The translations under genes and the position numbers were made by a program. The notes beneath the pieces were generated by a model. That model made no database searches and was not told the origin of the DNA. It worked only from the letters and a program-made list of their open reading frames with translations. DNA of 64,000 nucleotides, from positions 186,001 to 250,000 of the forward strand of contig NZ_CP168034.1 of assembly GCF_041530365.1 (NCBI RefSeq), read 5' to 3'. The stretch is from Capnocytophaga sp. ARDL2. Its GTDB lineage: Bacteria; Bacteroidota; Bacteroidia; Flavobacteriales; Flavobacteriaceae. This document shows, one piece after another, positions 9,178-25,357 of the stretch (positions are counted from its first letter, which is position 1; the number at the start of each line of letters is the position of its first letter).

Positions 9178-10080
9178 ATGTTTCCCATAGCTTTTCATCC
9201 CTCATACATACATCCTGTACCCGAAAACCATCGTTTTCCTATGGAAAAATACCGCCTTTTGCCTGAGTATTTACTCAAAGAAGGGATAGTAGCTCACGAC
9301 TGGTTTTTCGAGCCTACACTGGCGACGGTTGAAGAATTGATTTTGGTACACGATGCTCAATATGTAGAGGATTTTATCAATTTGCGATTGGATGCTAGTG
9401 CGACCAGAAAAACAGGTTTTGTTCACAACAAAGAATTAGTAGAAAGGGAATTGTATTTGGTAAAAGGAGCGATTGAAGGGGCAAGAAAAGCTATAAAATC
9501 AAAGGTTGCCTTTAATATTGCAGGGGGAACTCATCACGCTTACCAAGCTCATGGCGAAGGATTTTGTATGCTCAATGACCAAGCAGTTGCAGCGGGCGTA
9601 TTGTTGAAAGAGCAATTGGCAAAAAACATTTTATTCATCGACCTTGATGTACACCAAGGCAATGGTACAGCAGATATTTTTCAAAACGAAGAGCGTGTTT
9701 TTACTTTTTCGATGCATGGGAAAAACAATTATCCGTTCAAAAAAGAACAATCTTCGTTGGATATCGCATTGGAAGATAATATTTCAGATGTGGAATATCT
9801 ACAATTATTAAACACACATTTACAACAAATTATGAATACTTTTCAACCTGATTTTATTTTTTATCAATCGGGAGTAGATATTTTAGAAAGTGATAAATTG
9901 GGAAAAATGGGGTGCAGTTTAGACGGATGCAAACAAAGAGATTTAGTCGTGTTTTCCATTGCAAAACAGCATGATATTCCCGTACAATGTAGTATGGGAG
10001 GAGGTTATTCGCCCGATGTTTCAACGATTGTACAAGCACACGCCAATACTTTTTTGAGTGCCGTGGAGGTGTTTTTATAA
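9178..10080 (+). CDS. Histone deacetylase-like (acetylpolyamine/acetoin class) amidohydrolase
   Basis: This 300-residue protein matches the arginase/deacetylase-fold zinc hydrolases. The catalytic His pair is in GGTHHAYQAHGEGFCMLND, zinc ligands are in FIDLDVHQGNGT, an Asp is in YQSGVDIL and a Gly-rich loop in SMGGGYSP. Bacterial members deacetylate small amines or proteins; the actual substrate is unknown. The 3' end overlaps by 6 bases the end of the stranded rimM fragment on the other strand, showing that rimM and this gene were once convergent neighbours before the island came between them. Confidence 0.88.
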   Translation: MFPIAFHPSYIHPVPENHRFPMEKYRLLPEYLLKEGIVAHDWFFEPTLATVEELILVHDAQYVEDFINLRLDASATRKTGFVHNKELVERELYLVKGAIEGARKAIKSKVAFNIAGGTHHAYQAHGEGFCMLNDQAVAAGVLLKEQLAKNILFIDLDVHQGNGTADIFQNEERVFTFSMHGKNNYPFKKEQSSLDIALEDNISDVEYLQLLNTHLQQIMNTFQPDFIFYQSGVDILESDKLGKMGCSLDGCKQRDLVVFSIAKQHDIPVQCSMGGGYSPDVSTIVQAHANTFLSAVEVFL

Positions 10081-10420
10081 ATACAAATCAATCAATCCAG
10101 GTGCGGTATTGAATAAAATTTCTTGATTTTCACGATCTACTTTTACGATAAATTCGTCGATGAGAGGTACGAGGATGGTTGCCTCGTTATAAGAGATTTC
10201 AAACAAAGCTTGTACACCGTTGTCTGTAACTTTTTCGATGATTCCAAACGCACCTTTTTCTTGGTCAATTGCTTTGAAACCAACAACTTCGTGGTAATAA
10301 AATTTATTTCCTTCCAATTTTGGAAGCATGTTTAGCGGAAGATATACTTCGCGTCCTATGAGTTCGTCTGCGTCTTCTTCAGAGGCAATATCTTCAAAAA
10401 GCACACGTAAGAAACGCTCT
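10075..10420 (-). pseudogene. Stranded 3' end of rimM left by island insertion
   Basis: This minus-strand fragment encodes the last 115 or so residues of RimM and ends at the normal stop. It is nearly identical to the 3' part of the intact rimM at 24833-25357: about a dozen base changes and four amino-acid changes. Homology ends abruptly at base 10420, after which unrelated sequence begins. The first 90 bases inside the junction (10331-10420) are identical in both copies. It lacks the N-terminal RimM domain and a start, so it should be nonfunctional even if an internal ATG is used. Confidence 0.88.
10331..10420. repeat. 90-bp direct repeat, left attachment-like end of the island
   Basis: These 90 bases are identical to 25089-25178, in the same orientation. 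Both lie inside rimM sequence. To the outside of this copy the two rimM segments differ at scattered positions, and inside they are unrelated. This is what site-specific integration into a gene leaves when the element brings its own replacement 3' end. Confidence 0.85.
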
Positions 10421-10776
10421 ACTTTAAGAGAAGACAGATTATTTACTGTTTAAAATTTCTTACGAATCAGAACATATGAAAGCAACTATTCTATTTACAA
10501 AGCAAGTTATGAAATATTTCACATTTTAAAATACATAGCTATCTCCTGTTTCGAAAAATTTTAAACAAACTGACGAGTGTATTTTCTAAACCACACCCTT
10601 TATTATCATGATAACCCATCATATACAACAATAAACACAATACATTATTTTATTCCAGCATAAAATTTAAAAATCTTTTTTTTATTTTTTTACGCTTAAA
10701 ATATGTTAAAATCTACCACGCTTATTTATAAAATTATTATATTTAAAAAGTTTTAACAATCTAAATCATTTTTATT

Positions 10777-10938
10777 ATGTGTAAAAGAAGTATTTTAAGC
10801 TTATTGTTAATTAGCCTCTTTTCGTGTCAAAACGAGTTTTCTACAGATACTAAAAATTATGATTCAGAAAACTCGAAAATTGCAAGTAGTAAAATCATTA
10901 CTATTGCCAGGCCAAAAATTCAGCTGTTAATTTTTTGA
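10777..10938 (+). CDS. Short lipoprotein N-terminus, probably a gene remnant
   Basis: ATG at 10777 opens a 53-residue frame with a lipoprotein signal (MCKRSILSLLLISLFSCQNE, Cys at the lipobox) and a short polar tail that ends in a hydrophobic, unnatural-looking C-terminus. It looks like the 5' end of a larger secreted lipoprotein cut off by rearrangement. The surrounding 10421-11201 otherwise shows no gene. It might be the start of the C10-protease-type gene whose middle part survives at 23892, but the sequence does not prove this. Confidence 0.35.
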   Translation: MCKRSILSLLLISLFSCQNEFSTDTKNYDSENSKIASSKIITIARPKIQLLIF

Positions 10939-11201
10939 ACAAAAAATAAAATTAAACTGCGAAAGTAAGTAAAAAGATGTAATATACACATACTAAATGG
11001 TTTAGTTTTTTATCAGAGAAATGTTGGAAAGCAAGGCATAGGGTAATTTGACGGGTAAAAACAAAGTTAGGTTTCTAAATCGTTACCTAATGGTGGTTTT
11101 AAATATTTTAAGTAAAAGACTATATTTCAGTGTTTTGCACTTGTTTTCATAGCGTATGGTAACTCAATAGAAATTAATTTTGTAATTTAAAAAGTTGAGT
11201 T

Positions 11202-12449
11202 ATGCAAGTAAAAAAATCAACCTTCAAAGTGCTTTTCTATCTGAAAAAGAATGCTCCTAAGAAAAACGGAAAAGTGGCCATTATGGGTAGGATTACCATT
11301 GATGGTAAAATTGCCCAATTTAGTACTAAACTCGAAATTTTTCCCGATAAATGGGACTTGAAATTCGGCAAAGTCTTAGGTAAGAGTGAAGAAGCTCTTT
11401 TATTAAATCGCAAATTGGAAGAACTGAAAACTCGTTTGGTCAATCAATATGACCATTTGATGAAAACAGAAGGCTTTGCCACTGCCGAAAAGCTTAAAAA
11501 CAGCTTTTTAGGCATTGGAACAATGGACGATTCGCTTTTAAAAGTTTTTGAAAATTTCAACGTTGATTTTGAAAAAATGGTTCAAAAAGGAGTAAGAGGC
11601 AAACAGACATTAGCGAAATATCAAAATGTATATACACATCTTTCAGATTTTATTGGTTATAAATACCATCGAAAAGATATGGCCTTTCGGGAGCTTACAG
11701 CGGATTTCATTAAAGATTTTGATTTTTATCTTCGTGTTGATAAAGGATTAACACATAATACGATATGGGTATATATGATGCCTTTGTGTAAGATGATTGA
11801 CATCGCTTTGGAAAAAGATTTGATTCACAAGAACCCATTCCGAGAATACGAAATTACAATGCAGGAAAAAGACCGAGGTTATTTGCTAAAAGAAGAAATT
11901 GAGCAGTTATTGAGCTGTACTTTTAAGAGTAAAACCCGTGAATTGGTGCGTGATTTGTTCGTGTTTAGCTGTTTTACAGGACTTTCGTATATTGACATCA
12001 AACAGCTTAAAAAGAACCAAATTCAAACCTTTTTTGATGGCAATCGTTGGATTCTTTCCCGTAGGCAAAAAACGAGCAATCCTTCCAATGTTCGCATACT
12101 TCCCATCGCTCAAAAAATCATTGATAAATACGAATCCATCAGTAGAGGTGAGTTTGTATTTCCTGTCCCAAGTAATACCTCTTGCAATCTTCATTTAAGA
12201 GAAATTAGCTTAGAGGCGGGTATTGATAAAACAAAGCCATTGAGCTTTCATTGGGCAAGGCATACTTTTGGCACCTTATTTCTTACAGAAGGTGTTCCTT
12301 TGGAAAGTGTTAGTAAAATGATGGGACACAAGAATTTGAAAACCACACAGATTTATGCTAAAATCACCAATGAAAAAATCAGTAAGGATATGGAAAAAAT
12401 CGCTTGTAAATTCAATGATTTTGGTGAGCGATTAGTCGCTTCATTATAA
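11202..12449 (+). CDS. int: Tyrosine recombinase/integrase, IntDOT-like
   Basis: This 415-residue protein has an N-terminal arm-binding domain (Arm-DNA-bind_5 type: STFKVLFYLKKNAPKKNGK), a SAM-like core-binding domain (about 110-210) and a C-terminal catalytic domain. Catalytic residues seen are Lys in RRQKTSN, His-Arg in HWARHTFG, His in MMGHKNLKTT and the Tyr nucleophile in TQIYAKI. At the place of the first catalytic Arg it reads CFTGLSYID, with Ser; IntDOT of CTnDOT is known to lack this Arg as well. It lies 780 bases inside the left border and points inward, as expected for an element integrase. Confidence 0.92.
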   Translation: MQVKKSTFKVLFYLKKNAPKKNGKVAIMGRITIDGKIAQFSTKLEIFPDKWDLKFGKVLGKSEEALLLNRKLEELKTRLVNQYDHLMKTEGFATAEKLKNSFLGIGTMDDSLLKVFENFNVDFEKMVQKGVRGKQTLAKYQNVYTHLSDFIGYKYHRKDMAFRELTADFIKDFDFYLRVDKGLTHNTIWVYMMPLCKMIDIALEKDLIHKNPFREYEITMQEKDRGYLLKEEIEQLLSCTFKSKTRELVRDLFVFSCFTGLSYIDIKQLKKNQIQTFFDGNRWILSRRQKTSNPSNVRILPIAQKIIDKYESISRGEFVFPVPSNTSCNLHLREISLEAGIDKTKPLSFHWARHTFGTLFLTEGVPLESVSKMMGHKNLKTTQIYAKITNEKISKDMEKIACKFNDFGERLVASL

Positions 12450-12985
12450 CGTAGTTGATTGTCTATCAAAGATATTCGATTTTAGTATTTACCGATACAG
12501 GGATTGTTTACAATTTTTGTATCGGTTTTTTTATTGGCTTTTATTCGGCAGAGGAAGGCTACTTCATTTCATTTTAGTTAGTAATGGTGTGTGCGTTTGT
12601 TTATGGTATTTTCTCCTGTTTTATTTATGGGGTAAGAAGCCGATATGGGTGTTCGTTTTCGAGAGCAAAGGTATTTCTGTGTTTGTAACGCTTCTACAAG
12701 GTCAAGCCTTTGGTTTTCAAAAAAATCTCCACACCCGTTTTCAACAGGGGTTGTATTTTTTTGAAAAACCTTGTAGCCGCTAAACACAGACCTTTTAGGC
12801 TCTCGAAACGACAACCGCATATTCCGGCTCTTTATACGAATAAAAAAATGTCGAAAATGATAAAAATGAACGCACTACTTACTACTTGTTTTAATGAAAC
12901 GACTTCGCTCTTCCTCTCATTGCCGAATTAAAAATTTTAGTTAAGATGAGCAAGTATGCTTATGTTTTTTGTGCTTTCTCTTTTA
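12450..12985. other. Non-coding stretch with a long inverted repeat downstream of int
   Basis: No convincing gene. The notable structure is at 12692-12774: CTACAAGG (12692-12699) pairs with CCTTGTAG (12767-12774), and inside it GGTTTTCAAAAAAAT (12710-12724) pairs with ATTTTTTTGAAAAACC (12753-12768). A small ACCCG...GGGT hairpin sits in the loop. This may be a structured RNA, a terminator complex for int, or part of a transfer origin. Confidence 0.5.
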
Positions 12986-13225
12986 TATTTAGAAACTTAC
13001 CTATTTGTATGCTTACTTATACACGCACGTACCTACATATTTACATACATATATGCACAAACAAGTAAGTGTGTAAGTATTTACGTTTGCAGATAATCAC
13101 ATAGGTATTATCGTATTTGTTTACGTACGTATGTACATATGTAAGTACGTTGGTACGTAGCTACGTAGCTACATACATATGTATGTGCGTACAAAGAAAC
13201 ATACACAATTACACACGTATTTACA
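12986..13225. repeat. Tetranucleotide-periodic sequence (TACN/ACGT type)
   Basis: For about 240 bases the sequence runs in steps of four: the first part as CTTA CCTA ... CATA CATA, the second as ACGT ACGT ATGT ACAT and so on with AGCT and ACGT words. It is rich in TA, GTAC and ATAT steps and contains many small palindromes. No open frame or known motif explains it. It lies just upstream of the mobA remnant. Confidence 0.7.
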
Positions 13226-13531
13226 TAAGGAAGTCTTTGGCATTATAGGGCATTCAATGGCAAGGAATGATATATCTGCTAAATGATTGAAATTCGGTTG
13301 TTTTGCACAAAAACAAAAGACAATGATTTTGGAAGGTCTTTCTTTCTTTTTCAAAGCTAATTTTAATGCGACCGATAGGGAGTATTTTCTGTTCACCCGA
13401 ACAGAGCAAGTTGTGTTTTGAGATGCTCAAAATATTTTCCGCATCTCAAAACCACTTGCCCTTGCAGGGAGCTGAAAACCTCTCCAAAGTCGTGGTTTTT
13501 TAACTTAACAACCGATTTTATAAATAACACT

Positions 13532-14001
13532 ATGGACACAAAAAATATTCAACATAAGCAATATAACGGACGACACAAAAGCTCAATCCAACCACACATC
13601 GGTATGTGTTTCGACTAAATGATGAAGATAATGCTAAATTTCTATCCCTGTTTGAACAATCGGGAATGAAAATCAAAGCTCATTTTATCACTTCGGTATT
13701 ATTTTCCAAAGAAATCAAAAGTGTAAAATTCGATAAATCAGTATTGGATTTTTATATCAAACTCACCGAACTCTATGGGCAATTTCGGGCGGTGGGAGTG
13801 AATTACAATCAGATAGTAAAGATTTTGTATCGCAATTTTTCCGAAAAGAAAGCCGCTGCCTATCTGTTCAAACTTGAAAAACAAACGGCTCAAATGGTAG
13901 CTATCTGTAAAGAAATTATGGCTATTTCACAACAATTAGAACAACATATCACTGAAAAAATAATGACGTGTAAGACATCAAACTTCATTTTATATATTTG
14001 A
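13532..14001 (+). pseudogene. mobA: Mobilization protein MobA, frameshifted and truncated
   Basis: ATG at 13532 begins MDTKNIQHKQYNGRHK, then the frame must shift near 13580 to read HRYVFRLNDEDNAKFLSLFE and continue to 14001. The product matches the MobA accessory relaxosome protein of Bacteroidota conjugative elements: a ribbon-helix-helix-like N-terminus, FITSVLFSKEIK, FRAVGVNYNQIVKILYRNFSEKKA, and a helical C-terminus. The C-terminus is replaced by unrelated residues, and the mobB relaxase that normally follows is absent; the superoxide dismutase gene begins instead. Loss of mobB suggests a deletion that joined cargo to this end. Confidence 0.75.
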
Positions 14002-14166
14002 TTTACAATTTATTAAAAAGTACATTATGAAAATAGATAAAAAATTTATCGATTTATTTTTTTAGACAAGTATAAATTATTATTTTTGCTAATCTAAACA
14101 CAATAACAAACTAATAATATTAAAAAACTAAAAACCAATAAACTAACTAATTTAATTGTAAGTAAA

Positions 14167-14763
14167 ATGAAAATCAATCACACACTTCCAGAGCTTCCAT
14201 ATGATAAAAACGCTCTAAACCCGATTATTACCGAGGAAACTTTTGACTATCACTACGACAAGCATCACGCTACCTATGTAAATAACCTTGCTGGATTGGT
14301 AAAAGATACCGAATGGGCGGAAAAAGACATCGTGGATATCATCCGAAAAAGCCACGCACAAAACAATGTAGCTATTTTCAACAATGCGGCTCAGCATTGG
14401 AATCATTCCTTTTTTTGGAATTGCCTGTCGCCCGATGGCGGAAAAAATCCTACGGGGAAAATCGCCGAACTCATTAACCGCGATTTCGGAAATTTTGAAA
14501 ATTTTAAAGAACAATTCTCTACCACTGCCGTAAAATTATTCGGTGCAGGTTGGGCGTGGCTGGCTCAAAATCAAGAAGGAAAACTAGAAATTCTCCCAAT
14601 GAAAGATGCCTACACTCCACTTACCGAAAACAAAACGCCTATTCTCACCATTGATGTATGGGAACACGCTTACTATATCGATTACCGAAATGCAAGACCC
14701 AAATTCGTGGAAGGTTTCTGGGAATTGGTCAATTGGAATTTTGCTAACCAAAATCTAAAATAA
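14167..14763 (+). CDS. sodB: Superoxide dismutase, Fe-type
   Basis: This 198-residue cytoplasmic enzyme dismutates superoxide. The metal ligands are visible: His29 in DYHYDKHH, His81 in WNHSFFW, Asp163 and His167 in DVWEHAYY. The second-sphere Gln is in NNAAQ (about residue 77), where Fe enzymes have it, and the overall pattern is closest to E. coli SodB; some Bacteroidota enzymes of this type accept Mn too. It is the first gene of a long operon and is followed after 1 base by a TPR protein. A TATTTTTG -7-like box lies at about 14081-14088; no clear TTG box. Confidence 0.95.
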   Translation: MKINHTLPELPYDKNALNPIITEETFDYHYDKHHATYVNNLAGLVKDTEWAEKDIVDIIRKSHAQNNVAIFNNAAQHWNHSFFWNCLSPDGGKNPTGKIAELINRDFGNFENFKEQFSTTAVKLFGAGWAWLAQNQEGKLEILPMKDAYTPLTENKTPILTIDVWEHAYYIDYRNARPKFVEGFWELVNWNFANQNLK

Positions 14764-14764
14764 T

Positions 14765-15250
14765 ATGAGTGATACTTGTGTAAATCATATCGAAAATTAT
14801 TGGAAATTTTTGACAGAAGAAGCTAATAAATTTTTCGATGAAGGAAATTACGAACTTGCTTTAGATGGCTACCTAAACGCCTTATATAGAGCAGAAGTAT
14901 TGAATAGCAATTTGCCAGATTGTGTGCGATTAAAAGTGCCTTTCATACAAGTATATACCATTTCGTGTTACAATTTGGCAAATTGTTATCAAGAAGTTAA
15001 GGATTTGAACAGAGCCGAAGAGATATTGCAAAAAGCAATATATTTTCTTTTGCATTTCTATCAGAAGGATTATCAAAAGGAAATCATTGAAAAAGAATTA
15101 AGAAAATCTATTCTCAATTACCTTAGTTTTACTCAAAAAAGTAATGTTAGAACATCAAAGACAGATGCTTTCTTAACTTATTTAAAAAATCAAATAACAA
15201 AAAATAATTTACAAAATATAAAAACATTTGATTATGTGCAATTCAATTAA
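14765..15250 (+). CDS. TPR-like helical protein of unknown function
   Basis: This 161-residue protein is all-helical and reads like two or three tetratricopeptide repeats: AANKFFDEGNYELALDGYLNAL, then NLANCYQEVKDLNRAEEIL. It has no signal peptide or membrane segment, so it should be cytoplasmic. TPR domains bind other proteins. Its start codon is one base after the sod stop codon and its end overlaps the peroxiredoxin gene, so it is probably made in step with them. A chaperone or scaffold role for the dismutase or peroxiredoxin is a guess. Confidence 0.75.
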   Translation: MSDTCVNHIENYWKFLTEEANKFFDEGNYELALDGYLNALYRAEVLNSNLPDCVRLKVPFIQVYTISCYNLANCYQEVKDLNRAEEILQKAIYFLLHFYQKDYQKEIIEKELRKSILNYLSFTQKSNVRTSKTDAFLTYLKNQITKNNLQNIKTFDYVQFN

Positions 15251-15851
15251 AAAACTGATTCAGAGAGAACAATTACAACTCATTCAAAAAGGAATACTAA
15301 GTATTGGGGACAAATTACCTGAATTTACTAAAAAAGCCGTTATTTCTACAAAACAAGGCATAGAAATTTCTGAAATTACAAATAACTATGCAACGGAGCA
15401 AGGAAAGTGGATGGTGCTTTTTTGGTGGCCCAAAGATTTTACTTTCGTCTGCCCAACAGAAATTGTAGAATTCAACAAAAACAACGAAAAATTCGCAGAG
15501 AGAAATGCTTTGCTGATTGGTGCTTCAACTGATACTGAATATGTACATTTAGGGTGGAGACAAAATCATCCCCAATTAGCAGACCTTTCTATCCCAATGC
15601 TTGCTGATACTTCCAAATCTTTATCCGAAGAAATGGGAATTTTAAACTGCGAAGAAAAAGTTGCTTATCGAGCTACTTTTATCATTGACCCACAAGGAAT
15701 TATACAATGGGTGAGCGTTTATCCTATGAATGTAGGAAGAAATGTAGAGGAAGTACTTCGTGTATTAGATGCTCTCCAAACGGAAGAATTAACTGCCTGT
15801 GGATGGAAGGCAGGAGAACAAACACTCTCTCAACAATTAAAAAACCAATAA
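15234..15851 (+). CDS. 2-Cys peroxiredoxin, AhpC/Prx1 type
   Basis: This protein of about 205 residues reduces hydrogen peroxide and organic peroxides. The peroxidatic Cys is in the family motif FTFVCPTEIVEF and the resolving Cys near the C-terminus in LTACGWKAGE; the Arg and Thr of the active site are also present. The ATG at 15234 overlaps the TPR gene by 17 bases. The first 24 residues before LSIGDKLPEFT are longer than usual. No AhpF-type reductase is adjacent, so electrons must come from another source such as thioredoxin. Confidence 0.92.
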   Translation: MCNSIKKLIQREQLQLIQKGILSIGDKLPEFTKKAVISTKQGIEISEITNNYATEQGKWMVLFWWPKDFTFVCPTEIVEFNKNNEKFAERNALLIGASTDTEYVHLGWRQNHPQLADLSIPMLADTSKSLSEEMGILNCEEKVAYRATFIIDPQGIIQWVSVYPMNVGRNVEEVLRVLDALQTEELTACGWKAGEQTLSQQLKNQ

Positions 15852-15852
15852 A

Positions 15853-17292
15853 ATGACCGATATTTACCTTTGTACAGAACTCAAACGATATACTCACAAT
15901 TCACCATCTGAAAAAGGCACAATGATCCGATTTATTCGTAACGAAAAAGATTTGCAAAAGATTGATATTCAAGAAAATTTAAAATCAGAAATTCGTCAAT
16001 CATTCGACAAGAAAGAGAATAAACATTGGTGTCTTTGGCAAGAAGAAAAAAGTTTGCTGGTAGCCGTTTCTAAAGATGAATTAGAAGATTTAAGGCAAAT
16101 AGGTGCGAATGTTATAGGCTCATTACAGCGTTCCGCTGCCTCTCCCTCTACAGAAGTGGTATTCGAAAATCTAGAAATGTTTTCCGAAAAAGAAAAATAC
16201 GCTCTCTTGGAAGGTATGTTGCTTAGCAGTTATCATTTTGATAAATATCTATCCCAAAAAAGGGAAGGCAAAATCACGCTATTTATTTCAGAAACCGCAG
16301 TTTCAGAACAGCAATACAAGGAACTTAATATACTTCTCGAAGCCATTTCCCTCACCAAAAACGCAGTGAATGAACCTGCTAATTATATGGACGCACTCAA
16401 ATTTTCAGAATGGGCACAAGGAGCAGGTGAAAAATTCGGTTTTGAAACGGAAATTCTTCATAAAAAGCAAATCGAAACCCTGAAAATGGGCGGTTTGCTT
16501 GGGGTAAATAAAGGTTCGGAAATACCACCCACTTTTAATATTATGCACTACAAACCGAAAAATGCAATAAATGATCAGCCGTTAGTTTTGGTGGGCAAAG
16601 GCGTAATGTTCGATACGGGCGGTTACTCACTCAAAGTGGGTGGCGTAATGAGTACAATGAAATGCGATATGGCAGGTGGTGCAGCCGTTCTAGGAGCGAT
16701 GTGTGCCATTGCAGGCAATCAATTACCTTATTATGTCATCGGTATTGTACCCGCTACGGATAATAAAATCAGCTCCAATGCCTTAGTGGTAGATGATGTG
16801 ATTACCATAATGGACGGCACAACGGTAGAAGTGCAAAATACCGATGCCGAAGGACGGCTTGTACTCGCCGATGCTCTGTGCTATGCGAAAAAATTCAACC
16901 CCGAATTGGTGATTGATATGGCTACGCTCACAGGAGCTTCGGCAGCAATAACGGGAAGTTTTGGTATTGCAGGACTTTCCAACCACCAAGAAAGTATCGA
17001 TGCTCTAAAATCCATTGGCGAAGAGGTTTATGAACGCATTGTACAGCTCCCTCTTTGGAAAGAATATGCCGAACTCATAAAATCTGATATTGCCGACCTT
17101 AAAAACATTGGTGGACCAATTGGCGGAGTCAGTACAGCAGCCAAATTCTTGGAACATTTTACCGATTACCCTTGGGTACATCTCGACATCGCAGGAGCAG
17201 CTTTTCTCAAAGACAAAAAAGGCTATAAACAAAGCGGAGCAACCGCCGTTCCTGTAAGATTAATATATGAATTTGTAAAAAGTAAATGCTAA
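15853..17292 (+). CDS. M17 leucyl aminopeptidase family protein
   Basis: This 479-residue enzyme matches the M17 family of two-metal aminopeptidases, which cut N-terminal residues from peptides in the cytoplasm. Metal-binding and catalytic motifs are intact: VGKGVMFDTGGYSLK, CDMAGGAAVLGAM and NTDAEGRLVLADAL. The N-terminal third (about 1-170) is the less conserved oligomerisation domain. It starts one base after the peroxiredoxin stop and ends overlapping the YceI-like gene, so it is in the middle of the operon. From here on the genes become visibly richer in G and C. Confidence 0.92.
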   Translation: MTDIYLCTELKRYTHNSPSEKGTMIRFIRNEKDLQKIDIQENLKSEIRQSFDKKENKHWCLWQEEKSLLVAVSKDELEDLRQIGANVIGSLQRSAASPSTEVVFENLEMFSEKEKYALLEGMLLSSYHFDKYLSQKREGKITLFISETAVSEQQYKELNILLEAISLTKNAVNEPANYMDALKFSEWAQGAGEKFGFETEILHKKQIETLKMGGLLGVNKGSEIPPTFNIMHYKPKNAINDQPLVLVGKGVMFDTGGYSLKVGGVMSTMKCDMAGGAAVLGAMCAIAGNQLPYYVIGIVPATDNKISSNALVVDDVITIMDGTTVEVQNTDAEGRLVLADALCYAKKFNPELVIDMATLTGASAAITGSFGIAGLSNHQESIDALKSIGEEVYERIVQLPLWKEYAELIKSDIADLKNIGGPIGGVSTAAKFLEHFTDYPWVHLDIAGAAFLKDKKGYKQSGATAVPVRLIYEFVKSKC

Positions 17293-17891
17293 TGAAAATC
17301 AAAAATTTATTCATCGTATTATTAGGTATAGGAGGTACATTGTTGTACTCTTGTAAAAATGAAAAATCATCTTTTGAACCCGTTGAAAATTCAGCAAAAG
17401 TAGAATGGACAGCATATAAAACTACCGACAAATTACCTGTAAAAGGAACTTTTGAATCGGTGGATTTAATTAATCTTTCTGAGGGAAAATCCGTTGAAAA
17501 TTTCTTAAACAATGCCGAGTTTTCTATTAATGCCTTAAAGTTGTCAACAGGAGATCCTTCCAGAGATGAAAAAATTAAAAATTTTTTCTTCGGATTGATG
17601 AATGAAGCAGGAAAAATATCGGGAAAATTCATTTTTGAAAATCATCAATGGGTTATAAAGCTAAGAATGAATGGAATTAGTGTAAATAATATTCCAGCAG
17701 AAATTCAATTCAAAGATAATTTATTGAAGGTCAAATCTTCCATCGATTTAAAAGAATTTAAAGCTTTGAAAGCCTTAGAAGTGCTTAACTCAGTTTGTTT
17801 CGATTTGCATAAAGGTGCTGATGGAATAAGTAAAGTATGGGAAAATATTGATATACAGGCATCTGTAAAATTAAAGGAAGCTAAAAAATGA
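17292..17891 (+). CDS. YceI-like lipoprotein
   Basis: This protein of about 199 residues has a lipoprotein signal ([12 protein letters not shown]...LLYSC). The mature part resembles the YceI lipocalin-like family: [20 protein letters not shown] near its start, then a beta-rich body with [13 protein letters not shown]. YceI proteins bind long isoprenoids or amphiphiles, and in some bacteria respond to stress. I chose the ATG at 17292, which overlaps the aminopeptidase stop codon (TAATG); an in-frame ATG two codons upstream is possible. Its stop overlaps the nrdB start (ATGA). It is the only exported protein in the operon. Confidence 0.75.
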
Positions 17892-18862
17892 TTACCGAAC
17901 CTCTTTTAATAGAAAACAAAGACCGCTTTGTCATTTTTCCTATACAGCACAACGATATTTGGCAATTCTACAAAAACGCCGAAGCTAGTTTTTGGACGGC
18001 AGAAGAAGTGGATTTGTCGCCCGACCTCCACGATTGGCAAAACAAACTCAATGATAACGAACGATTTTTCATCTCGCGGGTGTTGGCGTTTTTTGCCGCC
18101 AGCGATGGCATCGTCAATGAAAACCTTGCCATCAACTTCCTCCAAGAGGTGCAATATCCTGAGGCACGATGTTTCTACGGATTTCAAATTATGATTGAAA
18201 ACATCCATTCCGAAATGTACTCGCTCCTCATCGATACTTATGTAAAAGACCCTACCGAAAAAGACTATTTGCTTCGTGCCATCGAAACCATTCCGTGCGT
18301 TACCAAAAAAGCAAAATGGGCGTTGCGATGGATTACCAAAGGAAGTTTTGCCGAGCGACTCATCGCCTTTGCTGCCGTGGAAGGCATCTTCTTTTCAGGA
18401 AGTTTTTGCTCTATTTTCTGGCTCAAAAAACGCGGTTTGATGCCAGGGCTCACCTTTTCCAACGAACTCATCAGTCGGGACGAAGGTTTGCACTGCGATT
18501 TTGCTTGCTTACTCTATGCCAATCACCTACAAAACAAACTTTCGGAAGAAACCGTAAAAGAAATCATCGTAGATGCCGTTGCCATTGAAAAAGAATTTGT
18601 TACCGATGCACTCCCTGTGAAACTCATTGGGATGAATGCCGAACTAATGTGCCAATACATTGAGTTTGTTGCCGATAGATTGCTCGTTGCCTTGGGTTGT
18701 AATAAAGTATGGAACGCCACCAATCCCTTTGATTTTATGGAGCTTATTTCCCTGCAAGGAAAAACCAATTTCTTTGAACGGCGTGTGGGTGAATATCAAA
18801 AAACAGGCGTAGCACAAAGCAGTAGCGAACAAAACGCTTTTTCACTCGATGAAGATTTTTAA
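17888..18862 (+). CDS. nrdB: Ribonucleotide reductase class I, small (radical) subunit
   Basis: This 324-residue protein is remarkably close to eukaryotic RRM2-type subunits. All metal ligands are present: Asp42 (WTAEEVDLS), Glu104 and His107 (ENIHSEMY), Glu165 (AVEGIFF), Glu199 and His202 (RDEGLHCDF). The radical Tyr111 follows in HSEMYSLL, so this is a canonical tyrosyl-radical, metal-dependent class I subunit, not a metal-free or Phe-substituted one. The C-terminal tail FSLDEDF is the usual docking peptide for the large subunit. The gene is separated from nrdA by the deformylase gene, an unusual order. Confidence 0.95.
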
Positions 18863-18863
18863 G

Positions 18864-18883
18864 TAATTGTTAATTAACAATTA
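18864..18883. other. 20-bp perfect palindrome between nrdB and def
   Basis: TAATTGTTAA is followed directly by its reverse complement TTAACAATTA in the 39-base gap between nrdB and def. There is no T-tail to make a terminator. It could be an operator, an mRNA hairpin, or a chance product of an A/T-rich spacer. Confidence 0.4.
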
Positions 18884-18901
18884 ATCATTAACCATTAAAA
18901 A

Positions 18902-19483
18902 ATGAAACTCCCCATTTTTGCTTACGGAAACAATGTGCTGAAGACTAAGGCAGAAGCTGTAACACCCGATTTTCTCAATTTGAACGAACTCATCGACAAT
19001 ATGTGGGAAACGATGGAAAAAGCCAATGGCTGTGGATTGGCAGCACCACAAGTGGGTAAATCTTTGCGGTTGTTCGTTGCCGATTCAAAGGTGCTTTACG
19101 ATGTGATGAACGAGGACGAACGAGCCGAACTTTTTGAACCCAACGATACAGGTATTCGGCGGGTGTTTATCAATCCGCAAATAAAAAATCTTTCCGAAGA
19201 ACAATGGGAAGAAGTGGAAGGCTGTTTGAGTTTGCCCTTTTTATCAGGAAAAGTAGCCCGTTCGTGGTCGGTGGAATTGAGCTATCAAAACGAACAATTT
19301 GAAACCATCACCCAAACTTTTAGCGGAATGACCGCACGCGTGATTCTCCACGAATACGACCACTTGGAAGGCATTCTCTACATTGACCGAGTGAAACCCT
19401 TGGCGAAAAAACTGATGCAATCCAAACTCCAAAAACTATTGAAAGGAAATCTAGTTCCTGCTTATGCTATGAAATTCAAATAA
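18902..19483 (+). CDS. def: Peptide deformylase
   Basis: This 193-residue enzyme removes the formyl group from nascent proteins. The three class motifs are intact: GCGLAAPQVG, EGCLSLP (Cys metal ligand) and HEYDHLEGIL (two His ligands and the catalytic Glu). The metal is usually Fe2+, which makes deformylase sensitive to peroxide in E. coli. An insertion of about 15 residues after the first motif (DVMNEDERAELFEPND) occurs in other Bacteroidota deformylases as well. It sits between nrdB and nrdA, 9 bases before the latter. I cannot tell whether it is the only copy in the genome. Confidence 0.94.
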   Translation: MKLPIFAYGNNVLKTKAEAVTPDFLNLNELIDNMWETMEKANGCGLAAPQVGKSLRLFVADSKVLYDVMNEDERAELFEPNDTGIRRVFINPQIKNLSEEQWEEVEGCLSLPFLSGKVARSWSVELSYQNEQFETITQTFSGMTARVILHEYDHLEGILYIDRVKPLAKKLMQSKLQKLLKGNLVPAYAMKFK

Positions 19484-19492
19484 AAAAAAGAA

Positions 19493-21827
19493 ATGTTTGT
19501 AATAAAGAGAAACGGAAAAAAAGAAGCCGTTCATTTTGATAAAATTACGGCTCGTATTCATAAACTCATCTACGGCTTATCGATTTCGGAAAAAGATGTA
19601 ATTGAAATTGCTAAAAAAGTCATTCAAGGGATTTACGACAATGTTACCACTACCGAACTGGACAACCTTGCGGCAGAAACCGCCGCCGCACAAACTACCA
19701 TTCACCCTGATTTTTCGGTCTTGGCGGCACGCATCGCCGTGAGCAATTTGCACAAAAACACTCTCAAATCGTTTTCAAAAACCGCTCAATTGCTCTACGA
19801 ATACACCGACCCCATAACCCAAACCCACGCACCTCTCATCTCCGAAGAAATTTATAAAATCATTCGTAAAAACGCCGATGAACTCGACAGCAGTGTCATC
19901 TACGACCGCGATTATAATTTTGATTACTTCGGATTTAAAACCTTAGAGCGTTCCTACCTCATTCGCACCAATGGAAAGGTAACCGAACGCCCACAGCATC
20001 TCTTTATGCGTGTGGCGTTGGGCATTCACAAAGAGGATATTCAGGCAGCCATCGAAACTTACAACTTAATGAGCGAAAAATGGTTTATACACGCCACGCC
20101 AACGCTCTTCAACGCGGGTACGCCCAAACCGCAAATGTCGTCGTGCTTCCTACTCAGTATGACCGAAGACAGCATCGCGGGGATTTTCGACACCCTTAAA
20201 CGCTGTGCTTTGATTTCGCAATCGGCGGGTGGTATTGGCGTAAGCATTCATAACATTCGTTCTACAGGGAGCTACATCAAAGGTACAGGCGGAATTTCCA
20301 ACGGCATTATTCCGATGCTTCGCGTGTTCAATGACACCGCTCGGTATGTAGATCAAGGCGGCGGCAAACGCAAAGGTGCTATTGCCGTCTATATCGAACC
20401 GTGGCACTCGGATATTTTTGATTTTATTGATATTCGTAAAAATCACGGTAAGGAGGAGATGCGCGCAAGGGATTTATTTCCTGCCCTTTGGATTCCTGAC
20501 CTCTTTATGCAACGCGTAGAAGCCGACCAAATGTGGTCGCTCTTTGACCCCAACGAAGCACAAGGGCTGTACGAGGTGTATGGCGAAAAATTCAACGAAC
20601 TTTATACCACTTACGAAAACGAAGGAAAATTTCGCAAGCAAATCAAGGCACGCGAACTCTGGACAGCCATTCTCGAAGCTCAAATCGAAACCGGTACACC
20701 TTATATGTGCTACAAAGATGCCGTGAATGAAAAATCAAACCAAAAGAACATTGGTACGATACGAAGCTTCCAACCTCTGCACCGAAATAATGGAATACAC
20801 CAATGCTGATGAGGTGGCGGTGTGCAATTTGGCTTCCTTGGCTTTGCCTCGCTATGTTTCGGACAAGGGCTTTGATTTTCAAAAACTCTATGAAGTAACC
20901 AAAATCGTTACGCGAAATCTCAACAAAATCATTGACGGAAATTATTATCCCATTCCCGAAACCAAAACTTCTAATGACCGCCACCGTCCGATAGGTTTAG
21001 GTGTGCAAGGATTGGCAGATGTGTTTTTACTTCTTCGTTTGCCCTTTGAAAGCCCAGAAGCACGAAAGCTCAATAAGGATATTTTTGAGACCATTTATTT
21101 TGCTTCGATGGAAGCCTCGATGGAATTGGCAAAGGAGCAAGGAGCGTACAGTTCGTTTGCGGGTTCGCCTCTTTCGGAAGGAAAATTTCAGTTTGATTTA
21201 TGGCAAGTAGCCCCTTCTGACCGCTGGGATTGGGAAAAACTTCGCAACGAAGTGATGACCCACGGCATACGCAATTCGCTCCTTTTAGCACCGATGCCCA
21301 CCGCCTCTACTTCGCAGATTTTGGGCAACAATGAGTGCTTTGAGCCTTACACCAGTAATATTTATAACCGCCGTGTGCTTTCGGGTGAATTTGTGGTGGT
21401 CAATAAATTCTTACTCAAAGACCTCATCGAATTGGGCTTGTGGAACCCCACGATGAAAAACAAGCTCATCGCCGAAAATGGCTCGGTGCAAAACATTCCT
21501 GAAATACCGACCGAACTGAAAGAATTGTACAAAACCGTTTGGGAAATCAAACAAAAAACCGTTATTGATATGGCGGCAGACCGCGGGGCTTTTATCTGTC
21601 AGTCGCAGTCGCTCAACCTCTTTATGGCAGAGCCGAATTTTGCAAAGCTCACCTCAATGCACTTCCACGCGTGGAAAAGCGGACTGAAAACGGGTATGTA
21701 CTACCTCCGTACCAAAGCCGCCGTAGATGCTATCAAATTTACCGTAGACACTCAGATGCTTTCAGGACAATCACAAGTAGCCTGCTCACTAGACAACCCA
21801 GAGGAATGCCTAGCGTGTGGGAGCTAA
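19493..21827 (+). pseudogene. nrdA: Ribonucleotide reductase class I, large subunit, frameshifted
   Basis: The gene reads as an RRM1-like large subunit in two frames: 19493 to about 20764, then the +1 frame to 21827. The join is exact: NIGTIR, one extra base near 20765, then ASNLCTEI. Together about 777 residues are encoded, with every catalytic residue kept: the ATP-cone at the N-terminus, Cys in SSCFLLS, Asn-Cys-Glu in NLCTE, Cys in VAVCNLA, Tyr-Tyr in TGMYYLRT, and the C-terminal ECLACGS. No slippery sequence is seen, so either one base is a sequencing error or the gene was broken recently. The front product alone (438 residues) lacks the radical Cys and would be dead. Confidence 0.88.
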
Positions 21828-21862
21828 TCAATGAAAAATCATCATCTAAAAATCAAAATACC

Positions 21863-22486
21863 ATGACAAAATTATTTTTAGTCCGACACGGACAATCGCA
21901 ATGGAATTTAGAAAACCGCTTCACTGGTTGGAAAAATGTAGACCTCACCGAGCAGGGCAAACAAGAGGCAAAAAATGCAGGTTTGGTCTTGAAATCCGAA
22001 AAAATAGACGTGGCTTTTACCTCCCAATTGATACGGGCTCAGCACACTTTGGAAATCATTCTCAACCAATTGCCCAACAAAGAGGGCATCTCTGTAACGA
22101 GCCATCAGGCACTCAACGAGCGAGCTTATGGCGACCTCGAGGGGCTGAACAAGGCAGAAACGGCAGAGAAGTACGGCAAGGAGCAGGTGCATCTTTGGCG
22201 GCGTTCGTTTGATGTACCACCATCCAACGGCGAGAGTCTCAAGGATACTTACCACCGCGTGATTCCGTATTTTGAAACGGCAATCAAACCGCTTTTGCAA
22301 CAAGGGAAAAATGTCTTAATCGCCGCTCACGGCAATAGCTTGCGCGCCTTGATTATGTATTTGGAAAATCTTTCGCCCGAAGAGATTATCAAACGAGAGA
22401 TTGCCACAGGAGAGCCTATCGTTTATGGATTTGATAAAAAATTCAACGCTATCAAAATCGGGAAGACCATCGGCAACCACCTGTAA
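21863..22486 (+). CDS. gpmA: 2,3-bisphosphoglycerate-dependent phosphoglycerate mutase
   Basis: This 207-residue glycolytic enzyme interconverts 3- and 2-phosphoglycerate through a phospho-histidine. Motifs: [12 protein letters not shown] (catalytic His), [29 protein letters not shown] and [11 protein letters not shown] (second His). The ATG at 21863 was chosen because the family begins right there; it lies 35 bases after the nrdA stop. Unlike the cofactor-independent mutase, this type needs no metal. It closes the operon; a clear terminator is not seen, and the repeat array follows directly. Confidence 0.94.
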
Positions 22487-22489
22487 AGC

Positions 22490-22845
22490 TATTTCGATAG
22501 AGAGGAATCTATTTCGGTTAGAAAGAAATAATGTTCGGTGAATTAGAAATTTATTTTAGTTAGAAAGAAATGAATTTCGGTCAATCAAAAATGGTATTTG
22601 GTCAATCAGAAATGATATTTGGTCAGCCAAAAATGAATTTCGGTCAGCCGAATATGATTTTTTTATCTAAAAGGATGATTTTTTGATAAAGAAAAAATGA
22701 TATTTTGATACAAAAAAATGGATTATCAACTTTGATAGTTCATTTCTACAGGTTGATGATTCATTTCTGACACTTGATAAATCGTTTCTGAAGGTTGATG
22801 ATTCATTTCTAACATTTGATAAATCATTTCTGCAAACTAATAATT
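22490..22845. repeat. Array of degenerate 21-bp repeats in two opposing orientations
   Basis: About eleven units close to TTYGGTCARYCARAAATGATT run from 22501 to 22725. From there to about 22845 about five units like AGGTTGATGATTCATTTCTGA run as their approximate reverse complement. The shared core is CAGAAATGAWT. Unit length is mostly 21, sometimes 20-22. There are no unique spacers, so it is not a CRISPR. In the first half a small frame at 22570-22686 (38 codons) reads FGQSEMI FGQPKMN FGQPNMI, one repeat per seven residues; whether it is translated is unclear. Confidence 0.75.
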
Positions 22846-22860
22846 AAAAAATATAGAAAG

Positions 22861-23166
22861 ATGACAGAAGCACAACAAGCCATCATCAGCATTGCCCAAG
22901 GCTTGGACGAAGCTAATGCAGTGGTCAAGCCTTCATTTGAAGCTCAGTTTGAAGCACTGGTTGAATATATAGATGATTTGATTCAAAGGGATTTTAACAA
23001 GCTCATCAGTATTCTTTATCGGGTAGATGTTTCTGAAGAGAAGCTCAAAAAAGCCTTACAAGAGAACAAGCATACGCCTACCTGTCAGGTAATCGCTACG
23101 ATGCTTTTGGAACGTGAACTCGAAAAACGAAAGCGGAGAACTTTGTATAAGCAACCGCCTCAATAG
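22861..23166 (+). CDS. Conserved small helical protein of unknown function
   Basis: This 101-residue protein begins MTEAQQAIISIAQGLDEAN and is helical throughout, with FNKLISILYRVDVSEEKLKKAL in the middle and a basic tail (ERELEKRKRRTLYK). Similar short proteins with a LLYRVDVSE-K-L core occur across Flavobacteria, as far as I recall, without a known function. The start codon has an A-rich leader just after the 21-bp array. No membrane segment or signal peptide. Confidence 0.7.
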   Translation: MTEAQQAIISIAQGLDEANAVVKPSFEAQFEALVEYIDDLIQRDFNKLISILYRVDVSEEKLKKALQENKHTPTCQVIATMLLERELEKRKRRTLYKQPPQ

Positions 23167-23690
23167 TAACGATTCCTAAAAAGAATTAATTCAACAACAA
23201 GAGTAAGGGCAGATTTATTTCATTAAAAGGTGAGCTGTATGTATATTTTTTTCATTTCGATTTTTTGATAAAGAACTAGAATGTGTTGTTTTCACTTTAA
23301 TAATCACATTTACATTTGGAATTGAAAATAACTAATTGAGTGTCTTTTCGATCTTATAATGGAAACTAGAAGTCAATACTCAAAACGTGATAAGAGACTT
23401 GGATACAGTAGCTAAAATACTTATTTTGAGCATAACAACAAGTTAAAGCAATTACGGGATGGAAAAATAAACATCAGTAAAATGATAGATATTTTTAACA
23501 GGATTTTTAAAGTTTGATTCGAAACATAGTCATCACACTTTTCACAGGACGAAAATACGTTCCAAACCCGGAACATCGTTCTTGGATGAGCTTAAAAAGT
23601 CATTGGAAGAATATATGGATAAAGAATGATTTTATAAGTAGATTTTTATTGATAATGCTTGAGTGGGACTACCTCTTCCTATTGACCTTT
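23167..23690. other. Decayed sequence without an intact gene
   Basis: Several short broken frames are seen. The clearest, ending at about 23629, reads HRTKIRSKPGTSFLDELKKS and then LEEYMDKE, and another before it reads NNKLKQLRDGKINISKMID. They look like remnants of small genes from the mobile element, but I do not recognise the families. Confidence 0.4.
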
Positions 23691-23751
23691 TGAAGCAGGT
23701 GCGGTTGCAGGCAGTGATTTAAAATCACTGCCTGCAACCGCACCTGCTTCA
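23691..23751. repeat. 61-bp perfect palindrome (30-bp arms, 1-base centre)
   Basis: Bases 23691-23720 are the exact reverse complement of 23722-23751; the single A at 23721 is the centre. The arms are rich in G and C in an A/T-rich setting, beginning TGAAGCAGGTGCGGTTGCAG. There is no T-run directly after either end, and the loop is too short for a normal terminator. A promoter follows 20 bases to the right. Confidence 0.9.
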
Positions 23752-23771
23752 TAGGGCAAAGGTAAGTTTTT

Positions 23772-23801
23772 TTGCCAGTTTGTAAATAGTTCGTACCTTT
23801 G
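23772..23801 (+). promoter_or_regulatory. Promoter next to the palindrome
   Basis: TTG at 23772-23774 and TACCTTTG at 23794-23801 with a 19-base spacer match the phylum consensus exactly. The transcript would run into a short frame starting at about 23843 (MVPLPNHYLIHFRK, 14 codons) and then the C10-propeptide relic, so it now drives mostly broken sequence. Confidence 0.7.
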
Positions 23802-23891
23802 TGCCATTGAGTTACAGCGCAAAACAAGTAAAATCAGTAAAAATGGTTCCATTACCAAATCATTACCTTATACACTTCAGAAAATAATTAA

Positions 23892-24227
23892 CTGCTTGAT
23901 AATAAGAATTTTGAAAAATTAGTTGCATTTTTTTCAAAAAAATTAAAGCAAACAAATGGCTTACCCAACCTTTCTATTAATCTAATAGAAGATGTACAAA
24001 CCATTGAAAACAACAATGGCACTCCGATTATGTATGCTATAAATTTAGCAAATAACAATGGTTTTGTAGTCTTGTCTGCTTCAATTGTTGAAAAACCCAT
24101 TTTGGCATATAATCAACAAGGAAGATTTGATTTTGCAAACTGGAATGAGGTAAATGGTGGTTCTTCAAACCCATCAATAAATTATATTTACAATCAACAC
24201 ATGATTAATAACATAAATCCAAAATAA
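23892..24227 (+). pseudogene. Relic of a C10 (streptopain-family) protease propeptide
   Basis: The frame has no good start (a stop lies just before 23892) and covers about 111 codons. It reads NGTPIMYAINLANNNGFVVL, then SASIVEKPILAYNQQGRFDF, which is the Spi-like propeptide core of C10 cysteine proteases (xVxNLxNxxGFVVLSA-xxxPxLAYxxxGxFD). The catalytic domain that should follow is absent; the frame ends and a lipoprotein gene begins 3 bases later. It may survive as a free propeptide-like inhibitor, but lack of a signal peptide argues for a relic. A more complete but also broken C10 gene lies at 44353-45583. Confidence 0.6.
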
Positions 24228-24229
24228 TT

Positions 24230-24742
24230 ATGAAAAAATTAGTTTATTTATTTTTTAGTTTAATTGCATTTATAAGCTGCAATAAAAACGACGACAATCA
24301 GATAGGAGAAGTTTTTAATGCAAACTTTATTTATCTAAAATTCTCTGACGCACAAGGAAATGATTTGTTTCAAACCAATGTGTATAAACAAGATAAACTT
24401 AGTGTTTTTGTAACAGATGAGAACTGGAACGATTTATATTACACAAGTGGTCATCGCAATGGTCAAAAAATGGAAAATGTAGAAGGATATGCAAAAGTTA
24501 GAAGTATAGACTATGTAGATAATCGTACTATTTTAGGTTTATTATTAGTTTATGAACACGAGGTTGAAAACAACCTCGTTACATCATATTACAAATTGCA
24601 ATACGATGATAATATGTTTGATTACATCAAAGTCGTTGCTGAAAAAGGAGAAAGATTCTTTTATATTAGAAAAGTATATTATAATGAAGTGGAATACACT
24701 TTAGAAGAAGATAGCACTCCTATTATAAACATTATCAAATAA
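24230..24742 (+). CDS. Lipoprotein, C10-protease-associated type
   Basis: This 170-residue protein has a clean lipoprotein signal (MKKLVYLFFSLIAFISCNKN). The mature part is beta-rich with no catalytic motif. Its position right after a C10 propeptide, and its general pattern (xFxDAQGNDLFxT... a tyrosine-rich end), recall the lipoprotein at 43858-44343, which follows the other C10 gene. In Bacteroides, small inhibitors are encoded beside C10 proteases, so a protease-inhibitor role is a reasonable but unproven guess. Confidence 0.6.
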   Translation: MKKLVYLFFSLIAFISCNKNDDNQIGEVFNANFIYLKFSDAQGNDLFQTNVYKQDKLSVFVTDENWNDLYYTSGHRNGQKMENVEGYAKVRSIDYVDNRTILGLLLVYEHEVENNLVTSYYKLQYDDNMFDYIKVVAEKGERFFYIRKVYYNEVEYTLEEDSTPIINIIK

Positions 24743-24764
24743 TTTCTAAATCAAATACACAAAG

Positions 24765-24803
24765 AAAAACTGCCTTTGATTTATTTCTTAGGCAGTTTTT
24801 TAT
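24765..24803 (+). terminator. Terminator between the lipoprotein and rimM, bidirectional
   Basis: AAAAACTGCCT (24765-24775) pairs with AGGCAGTTTTT (24790-24800), with A- and T-runs on both sides. It can end the plus-strand lipoprotein transcript and the minus-strand rpsP-rimM transcript. Confidence 0.8.
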
Positions 24804-24832
24804 TTCAAAATATTGTGTGAGTTCAAAAAAAA

Positions 24833-25357
24833 TCACAAATACAAATCAATCAATCCAGGTGGGGTATTGAATAAAATTTCTTGATTTTCACGATCTACTT
24901 TTACGATAAATTCGTCGATAAGAGGTACGAGGATAGTCGCCTCGTTATAAGATATTTCAAACAAGGCTTGTACACCGTTGTCAGAAATTTTTTCGATGGT
25001 TCCAAACGCACCTTTTTCTTGGTCAATTGCTTTGAAACCAACTACTTCGTGGTAGTAAAATTTATTTCCTTCCAATTTTGGAAGCATATTTAGCGGAAGA
25101 TATACTTCGCGTCCTATGAGTTCGTCTGCGTCTTCTTCAGAGGCAATATCTTCAAAAAGCACACGTAAGAAACGCTCTTTGTGGATGCAAGATTTTTCAA
25201 CAAAAAAAGGAACCAAATGCCCATTGATTTCAACGAACATTGATTCCAATTCTGTATAAGATTCCGGCTCATCTGTATCTAAATAGACAAGAACTTCGCC
25301 TTTGAAACTAAATTTCTTAGCAATTTTTCCTAAATAAAAACAGTCTTTTTTACGCAT
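24833..25357 (-). CDS. rimM: Ribosome maturation factor RimM (3' part brought by the island)
   Basis: This 174-residue protein binds S19 in the 30S head and helps 16S rRNA processing. The N-terminal RimM domain begins KKDCFYLGKIAKKFSFKGEV, and the C-terminal PRC-barrel-like domain includes DELIGREVYLPL and ATILVPLIDEFI. It lies 27 bases after rpsP in the usual rpsP-rimM order. About two thirds of the gene, downstream of 25178, is duplicated at 10075-10420; the copy here is the functional one, a chimera of host 5' and island 3' sequence. The length is normal for the family. Confidence 0.95.
   Translation of the reverse strand: MRKKDCFYLGKIAKKFSFKGEVLVYLDTDEPESYTELESMFVEINGHLVPFFVEKSCIHKERFLRVLFEDIASEEDADELIGREVYLPLNMLPKLEGNKFYYHEVVGFKAIDQEKGAFGTIEKISDNGVQALFEISYNEATILVPLIDEFIVKVDRENQEILFNTPPGLIDLYL
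25089..25178. repeat. 90-bp direct repeat, right attachment-like end of the island
   Basis: This is the partner of 10331-10420, identical at all 90 positions and in the same orientation. Left of it the two rimM copies differ at scattered bases; right of it they are unrelated because only this copy keeps the rimM 5' end. The crossover therefore happened inside or at the right edge of this stretch. Confidence 0.85.

Follow-up and report, generated by a model that had tools for sequence, protein, structure and literature searches.

Why does a bacterial chromosome carry one complete rimM gene and, on the same strand, the 3' end of that gene a second time? The question arises in a stretch of 64,000 nucleotides from Capnocytophaga sp. 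ARDL2 (contig NZ_CP168034.1, positions 186,001 to 250,000), referred to here as the window, in which all unlabelled positions are counted. An original prediction described 10421-25178 as one genomic island that had been integrated into rimM by an adjacent IntDOT-like recombinase and had supplied the gene with a replacement 3' end. The span is correct between the inner edges of the duplication, but it contains two nested insertions and not one island. The account that we favour, with moderate confidence, is of two separate events: an older entry of a small outer cassette by homologous recombination in rimM, and the later arrival of an unrelated inner integrative element.

The complete rimM (24833-25357, minus strand, 174 amino acids) is full length, with the Pfam domains RimM and PRC_RimM and a TIGR02273 match above cut-off. 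Its 3' part (24833-25178, the right copy of the duplication) occurs again as a 346-base fragment at 10075-10420 (minus strand, the left copy), which retains the PRC_RimM domain. The copies are of equal length and the same orientation and align with 15 mismatches in 346 bases and no indels. At the inner edge exactly 90 bases are identical and all 15 mismatches lie outside them, so that this part of the prediction, like the complete gene, was borne out. A long direct repeat of the target sequence thus stands at both edges of the insert. The genome, a single contig of 2,508,668 bases, has no third rimM match, and an assembly artefact is unlikely because the copies are 4.3% apart.

The nesting is visible in an interrupted gene for a C10-type (SpeB-like) peptidase. 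The gene starts at 10774-10939 (plus strand, lipoprotein-type signal by eye) and resumes at 23940-24227 (plus strand) with part of the Spi prodomain (Inhibitor_I69, 5.3e-09) and the C-terminal tail, the catalytic part being missing. Elsewhere on the chromosome an intact paralogue has an uninterrupted frame of 447 amino acids (446 scanned), in which Peptidase_C10 accompanies Inhibitor_I69 (the Spi prodomain), and a lipoprotein gene comes next; the scanned window fragment has only part of Inhibitor_I69. The segment 10736-10950 is 76% identical to the start of this paralogue (L154:3247-3461), and the segment 23939-24135 aligns to the DNA contiguous with it (L154:3453-3649; together C1:850746-851148). 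Because the peptidase pieces on both sides align to contiguous paralogue DNA, the inner element interrupts the peptidase gene. Further on, 24178-24801 aligns to the continuation of the paralogue (C1:852079-852684), and about 0.9 kb of the paralogue, including the catalytic part, is absent from the window gene between 24135 and 24178.

The inner element (10940-23940, plus strand, about 13.0 kb) has ends that are uncertain by about 10 bases and are defined by homology at other loci. On the left, homology starts at 10927-10943, and not at 10421, in all four aligned loci, namely a second copy in the same genome, C. canis, C. cynodegmi and a Capnocytophaga metagenome-assembled genome, whose flanks differ. 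On the right, eight Capnocytophaga loci representing seven distinct places were aligned, and homology stops at 23924-23943 in five of the seven, where the flanks again differ, and earlier in two (23871 and 23893). The conserved right terminus (23752-23943) has 71-84% matches to all or part of it in Capnocytophaga and is matched in seven of nine genomes of this genus; the eighth has only a 27-base match and the ninth has none. Both ends are A-rich. Near the right end, an inverted repeat of 35 bases, almost perfect and with a gap of one base, lies at 23686-23756, and a similar stem stretch aligns in one Capnocytophaga locus (L130).

The adjacent recombinase is indeed present: a tyrosine recombinase gene (11202-12449, plus strand), 0.8 kb from the edge of the rimM duplication, encodes the Pfam domains Arm-DNA-bind_5, Phage_int_SAM_5 and Phage_integrase. 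Its element ends within the peptidase gene on both sides, leaving 0.5 kb and 0.9 kb to the nearest duplicated rimM base, and this recombinase therefore probably did not target rimM. Its protein has relatives 97% and 98% identical in C. cynodegmi and C. canis, and near-identical recombinases occur elsewhere in the same genome and in Capnocytophaga without rimM alongside. On the ARDL2 chromosome, second copies of the recombinase region (95%; L155:6436-8446, C1:2114435) and the mobilization region (90%; L156:4510-5444, C1:2149509) are about 33 kb apart. The predicted splitting of rimM therefore stands in one respect, as the insertion separates two 3' ends and leaves one complete gene, and falls in another, as the recombinase next to the edge is probably not the agent. 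More generally, an integrase found just within the duplicated edge of a gene can be mistaken for one that targets this gene, when, as probably here, it arrived later in an older and smaller insertion.

Once the inner element is subtracted, the rimM copies lie about 1.4 kb apart, separated by about 0.5 kb on the left (10421-10939) and 0.9 kb on the right (23941-24832). In the left piece, the alignment with the paralogue of the same genome begins at 10736. The right piece carries a lipoprotein gene (24230-24742, plus strand) that is paired with the peptidase gene and is inhibitor-like by position only; its product is 66% identical to the paralogue in the same gene pair (C1:852131), and Pfam has no family for either protein. 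A stem followed by a T-run (24770-24801, plus strand) is terminator-like by eye, and the alignment with L154 runs through it. Relatives of the lipoprotein are found at four places in the genome, including the window, and in 11 of the 398 genomes of a genus sample, ARDL2 included, although seven of the ten others are marginal (E 3e-4 or weaker). No repeats of at least 30-40 bases flank the three other cassettes of the genome or those of the genus genomes G302 and G317. A 292-amino-acid protein, apparently the same one, is encoded in two copies (L154:2079-2954 and L210:4127-5002), one of them near the intact peptidase cassette; it is putatively transposase-like.

The 15 differences between the rimM copies comprise 10 silent changes, four replacements (T/I, I/V, S/T and P/A) and one change in the stop codon, the fragment ending in TTA TAA and the complete gene in TTG TGA. 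The dN/dS ratio between the copies is 0.099. About 22 replacements would be expected had the fragment been unconstrained since the duplication, and four are observed (Poisson P 2e-6 to 5e-6 if the two branches evolve at equal rates). With dN/dS at 0.10, and on the same assumption of equal branch rates, an intragenomic duplication with a decaying copy is rejected as the sole explanation. Because the differences are mostly silent, we read the copies as two working alleles that were brought together, perhaps with a few later changes in the fragment. The suggestion that the complete gene is a chimera of a host 5' part and an island 3' part with four amino acid changes has the direction of change reversed: at each of the four sites the residue commonest in nine relatives (8/9, 8/9, 5/9 and 9/9) is that of the complete gene, and it is the fragment that departs.

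A foreign origin of both 3' ends was also considered and rejected. Similarity to relatives falls past rimM base 179, where the duplication starts, but variability among the relatives rises there too. The ratio of the divergence between ARDL2 and eight relatives to that among the relatives themselves is 1.3-2.2 over six rimM blocks; it is highest in the block just past the duplication edge, a weak signal of foreign origin on which we do not build.

These features fit a history in which the junction between rimM and the neighbouring histone-deacetylase-like (HDAC) gene would have formed first and the cassette would have entered second. The cassette, comprising the C10-type peptidase gene with its Spi prodomain, the lipoprotein gene and the terminator, would have carried the rimM 3' end of a close relative. 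We infer that it entered from outside by homologous recombination inside rimM: either a circularised fragment crossed over once, or one-sided homology was combined with an illegitimate join at 10420/10421. The outcome would be one complete rimM beside the cassette and a truncated 346-base copy against the HDAC gene. The peptidase gene would afterwards have received, at an A-rich site, a Capnocytophaga-type integrative element that brought its own tyrosine recombinase. If the single-crossover reading is true, the locus is a natural case of a housekeeping gene rebuilt from the allele of a relative during the capture of a peptidase cassette.

The HDAC gene (9178-10080, plus strand, Pfam Hist_deacetyl 4.9e-58), whose stop overlaps that of the rimM fragment, complicates this history. 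It was located in 7 of the 14 relatives; in none of these seven does it adjoin rimM, so that no arrangement of the two genes side by side without an insert was found. A methyltransferase gene follows rimM in all 10 relative loci, and its ARDL2 counterpart is 136 kb away (C1:347399). Because HDAC is never beside rimM in the relatives and the methyltransferase gene is elsewhere here, the adjacency is a rearrangement of the ARDL2 lineage, in which either side may be the native one.

Several points weigh against the two-event history. The HDAC-rimM junction is itself a rearrangement, and neither a genome with an empty junction nor a donor was found, HDAC lying elsewhere in each of the seven relatives in which it was located. 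Among lipoprotein matches in other genomes, the best two (G302 and G317) are about 241 and 64 kb from rimM, so that no donor with the cassette next to rimM was identified. The segment 10421-10735 has no convincing relative, being touched only by short matches among those listed for 388 genus genomes. At each of the four replacement sites it is the fragment that lacks the residue commonest in the relatives, so some of the divergence may have arisen after the duplication. A simple circle crossover alone does not predict the identical 90-base edge, which would be expected if one-sided recombination had left host sequence in both copies. Classical homology-facilitated illegitimate recombination more often causes deletions than duplications (PMC3240628). 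On the favourable side, zero differences in the 90 edge sites has P 0.010 with uniform sites and 0.003 with sites weighted by variability. This clean edge was noticed after the fact, however, and because an identical run of at least 90 bases anywhere has P 0.15-0.17, it is suggestive only.

If rimM were a recurrent target of insertion, similar duplications would be expected in related genomes. The genus sample (398 genomes) and a family sample (397 genomes) have in common the ARDL2 genome and at least two others. The C-terminal part of rimM is matched in 388 of the genus genomes, six of which, including ARDL2, have more than one match. In the five others (G031, G189, G279, G310 and G412; two or three matches each) the matches are adjacent pieces of one frame-broken rimM. 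One of them, G189 (76% complete, 5% contamination), has an extra short 3' piece beside a methyltransferase gene, cut 107 bases upstream; the length of the locus suggests that the cut is a contig end, and the piece is not counted here as a resolved second copy. In the family sample rimM is matched in 386 genomes, with two matches in ARDL2 only. Apart from ARDL2, a resolved second rimM 3' copy was therefore found in none of the genomes with a match (387 in the genus sample and 385 in the family sample), and rimM as an insertion hotspot is not supported. By the same survey, relatives free of the island yet carrying two rimM 3' copies, which would have spoken against the original prediction, did not appear as a resolved case. 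Among the papers listed in literature searches, none is about rimM as an integration site, judged by titles and the starts of abstracts, which is no proof of absence in print.

The alternative that survives best, although we think it unlikely, is that the outer cassette is the remnant of a different, rimM-targeting site-specific element that lost its recombinase (a cis-mobilizable remnant). That the two copies share one sharply defined edge within rimM, and that the 3' end preserves the reading frame, would both suit such an element. However, the outer 1.4 kb has no recombinase among its open reading frames of at least 80 amino acids, the duplication is without a resolved counterpart in the two samples, and the identical edge of 90 bases is longer than what we take to be the usual core length.

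It is also improbable that the duplication is a by-product of the rearrangement that joined HDAC to rimM, in a lineage in which the cassette already lay downstream of rimM. The separation of HDAC and rimM in all seven relatives that have HDAC and the displaced methyltransferase gene are what this explanation would predict, but a rearrangement within one genome would hardly yield two rimM alleles that differ by 4.3% and have a dN/dS near 0.1. More doubtful still is the idea, prompted by the four lipoprotein loci of the genome, that peptidase-lipoprotein cassettes move by a mechanism of their own, without a recombinase, that lets them enter a housekeeping gene at its 3' end and rebuild it from a carried allele. 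Finally, it is very improbable that the recombinase at 11202-12449 integrated its element site-specifically at the rimM 3' end and that the replacement end came with the element: the gene of this recombinase is close to the duplication edge, the match between the rimM copies ends at the same base in both and replaced gene ends are a known integration pattern, but the ends of its element near 10940 and 23940 are inside the peptidase gene and not at the duplicated edge, the same recombinase sits elsewhere without rimM, and ARDL2 is the only genome of the two samples with a resolved second 3' copy.

Both processes in the two-event history, outer recombination and inner insertion, are of known kinds, and the reading that suits the outer duplication best is that of an ordinary kind of recombination product. 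Insertion with long target duplication, a name used for Helicobacter pylori (Nobusato et al. 2000, as cited in passages of PMC4978471 and PMC1643837), likewise places a gene cassette between long direct repeats of target sequence. The Helicobacter cases, as these passages describe them, often involve restriction-modification genes and were found by comparing two strains, whereas here a peptidase-lipoprotein cassette is involved, the copies are 4.3% apart and no uninserted strain was seen. In E. coli, 14 sequenced clones into which a DNA circle with a shortened homologous segment had integrated by single crossover carried duplications of 109-950 bp (PMC3240628); as in single-crossover insertion or homology-facilitated illegitimate recombination of that kind, homology is one-sided and part of the locus is duplicated, although that work concerned laboratory plasmids in E. 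coli and here the event is deduced from anatomy. The outer cassette also resembles genes for SpeB-like C10 proteases of Bacteroides fragilis, which mobile elements have spread and some of which are beside small inhibitor-like genes and some on genomic insertions (PMC2873492); unlike those described there, the peptidase gene here is broken by another element and is without its catalytic part.

For the inner element, the comparison class is the CTnDOT/IntDOT-type integrative elements of Bacteroidetes. It shares with them a recombinase with arm-binding, SAM-like and catalytic domains, a mobilization gene and ends that are reused with unrelated flanks. It differs in having a single mobilization gene, a cargo of housekeeping-type enzymes and no conjugation genes recognised among the proteins scanned. 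Read by eye, the recombinase has GLSYID where GLR is usual, which may correspond to the replaced first catalytic arginine of IntDOT. Nothing was found in the literature that joins Capnocytophaga with conjugative transposons, which again does not prove absence in print. The mobilization gene (13606-14001, plus strand) encodes a MobC_2/MobA-like protein (Pfam MobC_2, 9e-49), with 13666-13998 scoring 141.1 bits for NCBIfam Bacteroid_MobA, below the cut-off of 150.

The cargo (14167-22486, plus strand) comprises sod, an open reading frame of 161 amino acids, and genes for a peroxiredoxin, an M17 aminopeptidase, a YceI-like protein (below Pfam's cut-off), NrdB, a peptide deformylase, NrdA (with NrdB a class I ribonucleotide reductase) and a bisphosphoglycerate-dependent phosphoglycerate mutase. 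Several of these are presumably iron or manganese enzymes, and the cargo could possibly be a second set of housekeeping enzymes, a putative backup under metal or oxidative stress. Over the 7,750 bp of 14074-21823 the identity is 97.3% to a contig of C. cynodegmi DSM 19736 (L196:1-7748), in which sod to nrdA are collinear and the mutase gene has no match. By rimM alone, the host would be placed outside Capnocytophaga, because its protein is only 50-58% identical to those of nine Capnocytophaga genomes; it is 79% and 77% identical to those of two genus mates (G022 and G027), the other full-length matches among 80 genomes searched being at most 67% identical (higher values are partial matches only), and a larger genus draw added six close relatives at 76-80%. 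The identity of the cargo is a strong sign of transfer between genera. Because separate C. cynodegmi contigs are matched by the cargo and by the left module, from the recombinase to the MobC-like gene, the element may be composite, or the C. cynodegmi assembly may be split. Among plasmid records there is no near match to 10421-25178, and 18000-22500 is matched only distantly, through nrd and gpm genes. In the window nrdA consists of two overlapping frames (19493-21827), where L196 has a single frame of 777 amino acids, and diverged 21-base tandem repeats lie downstream of the mutase gene (22503-22836).

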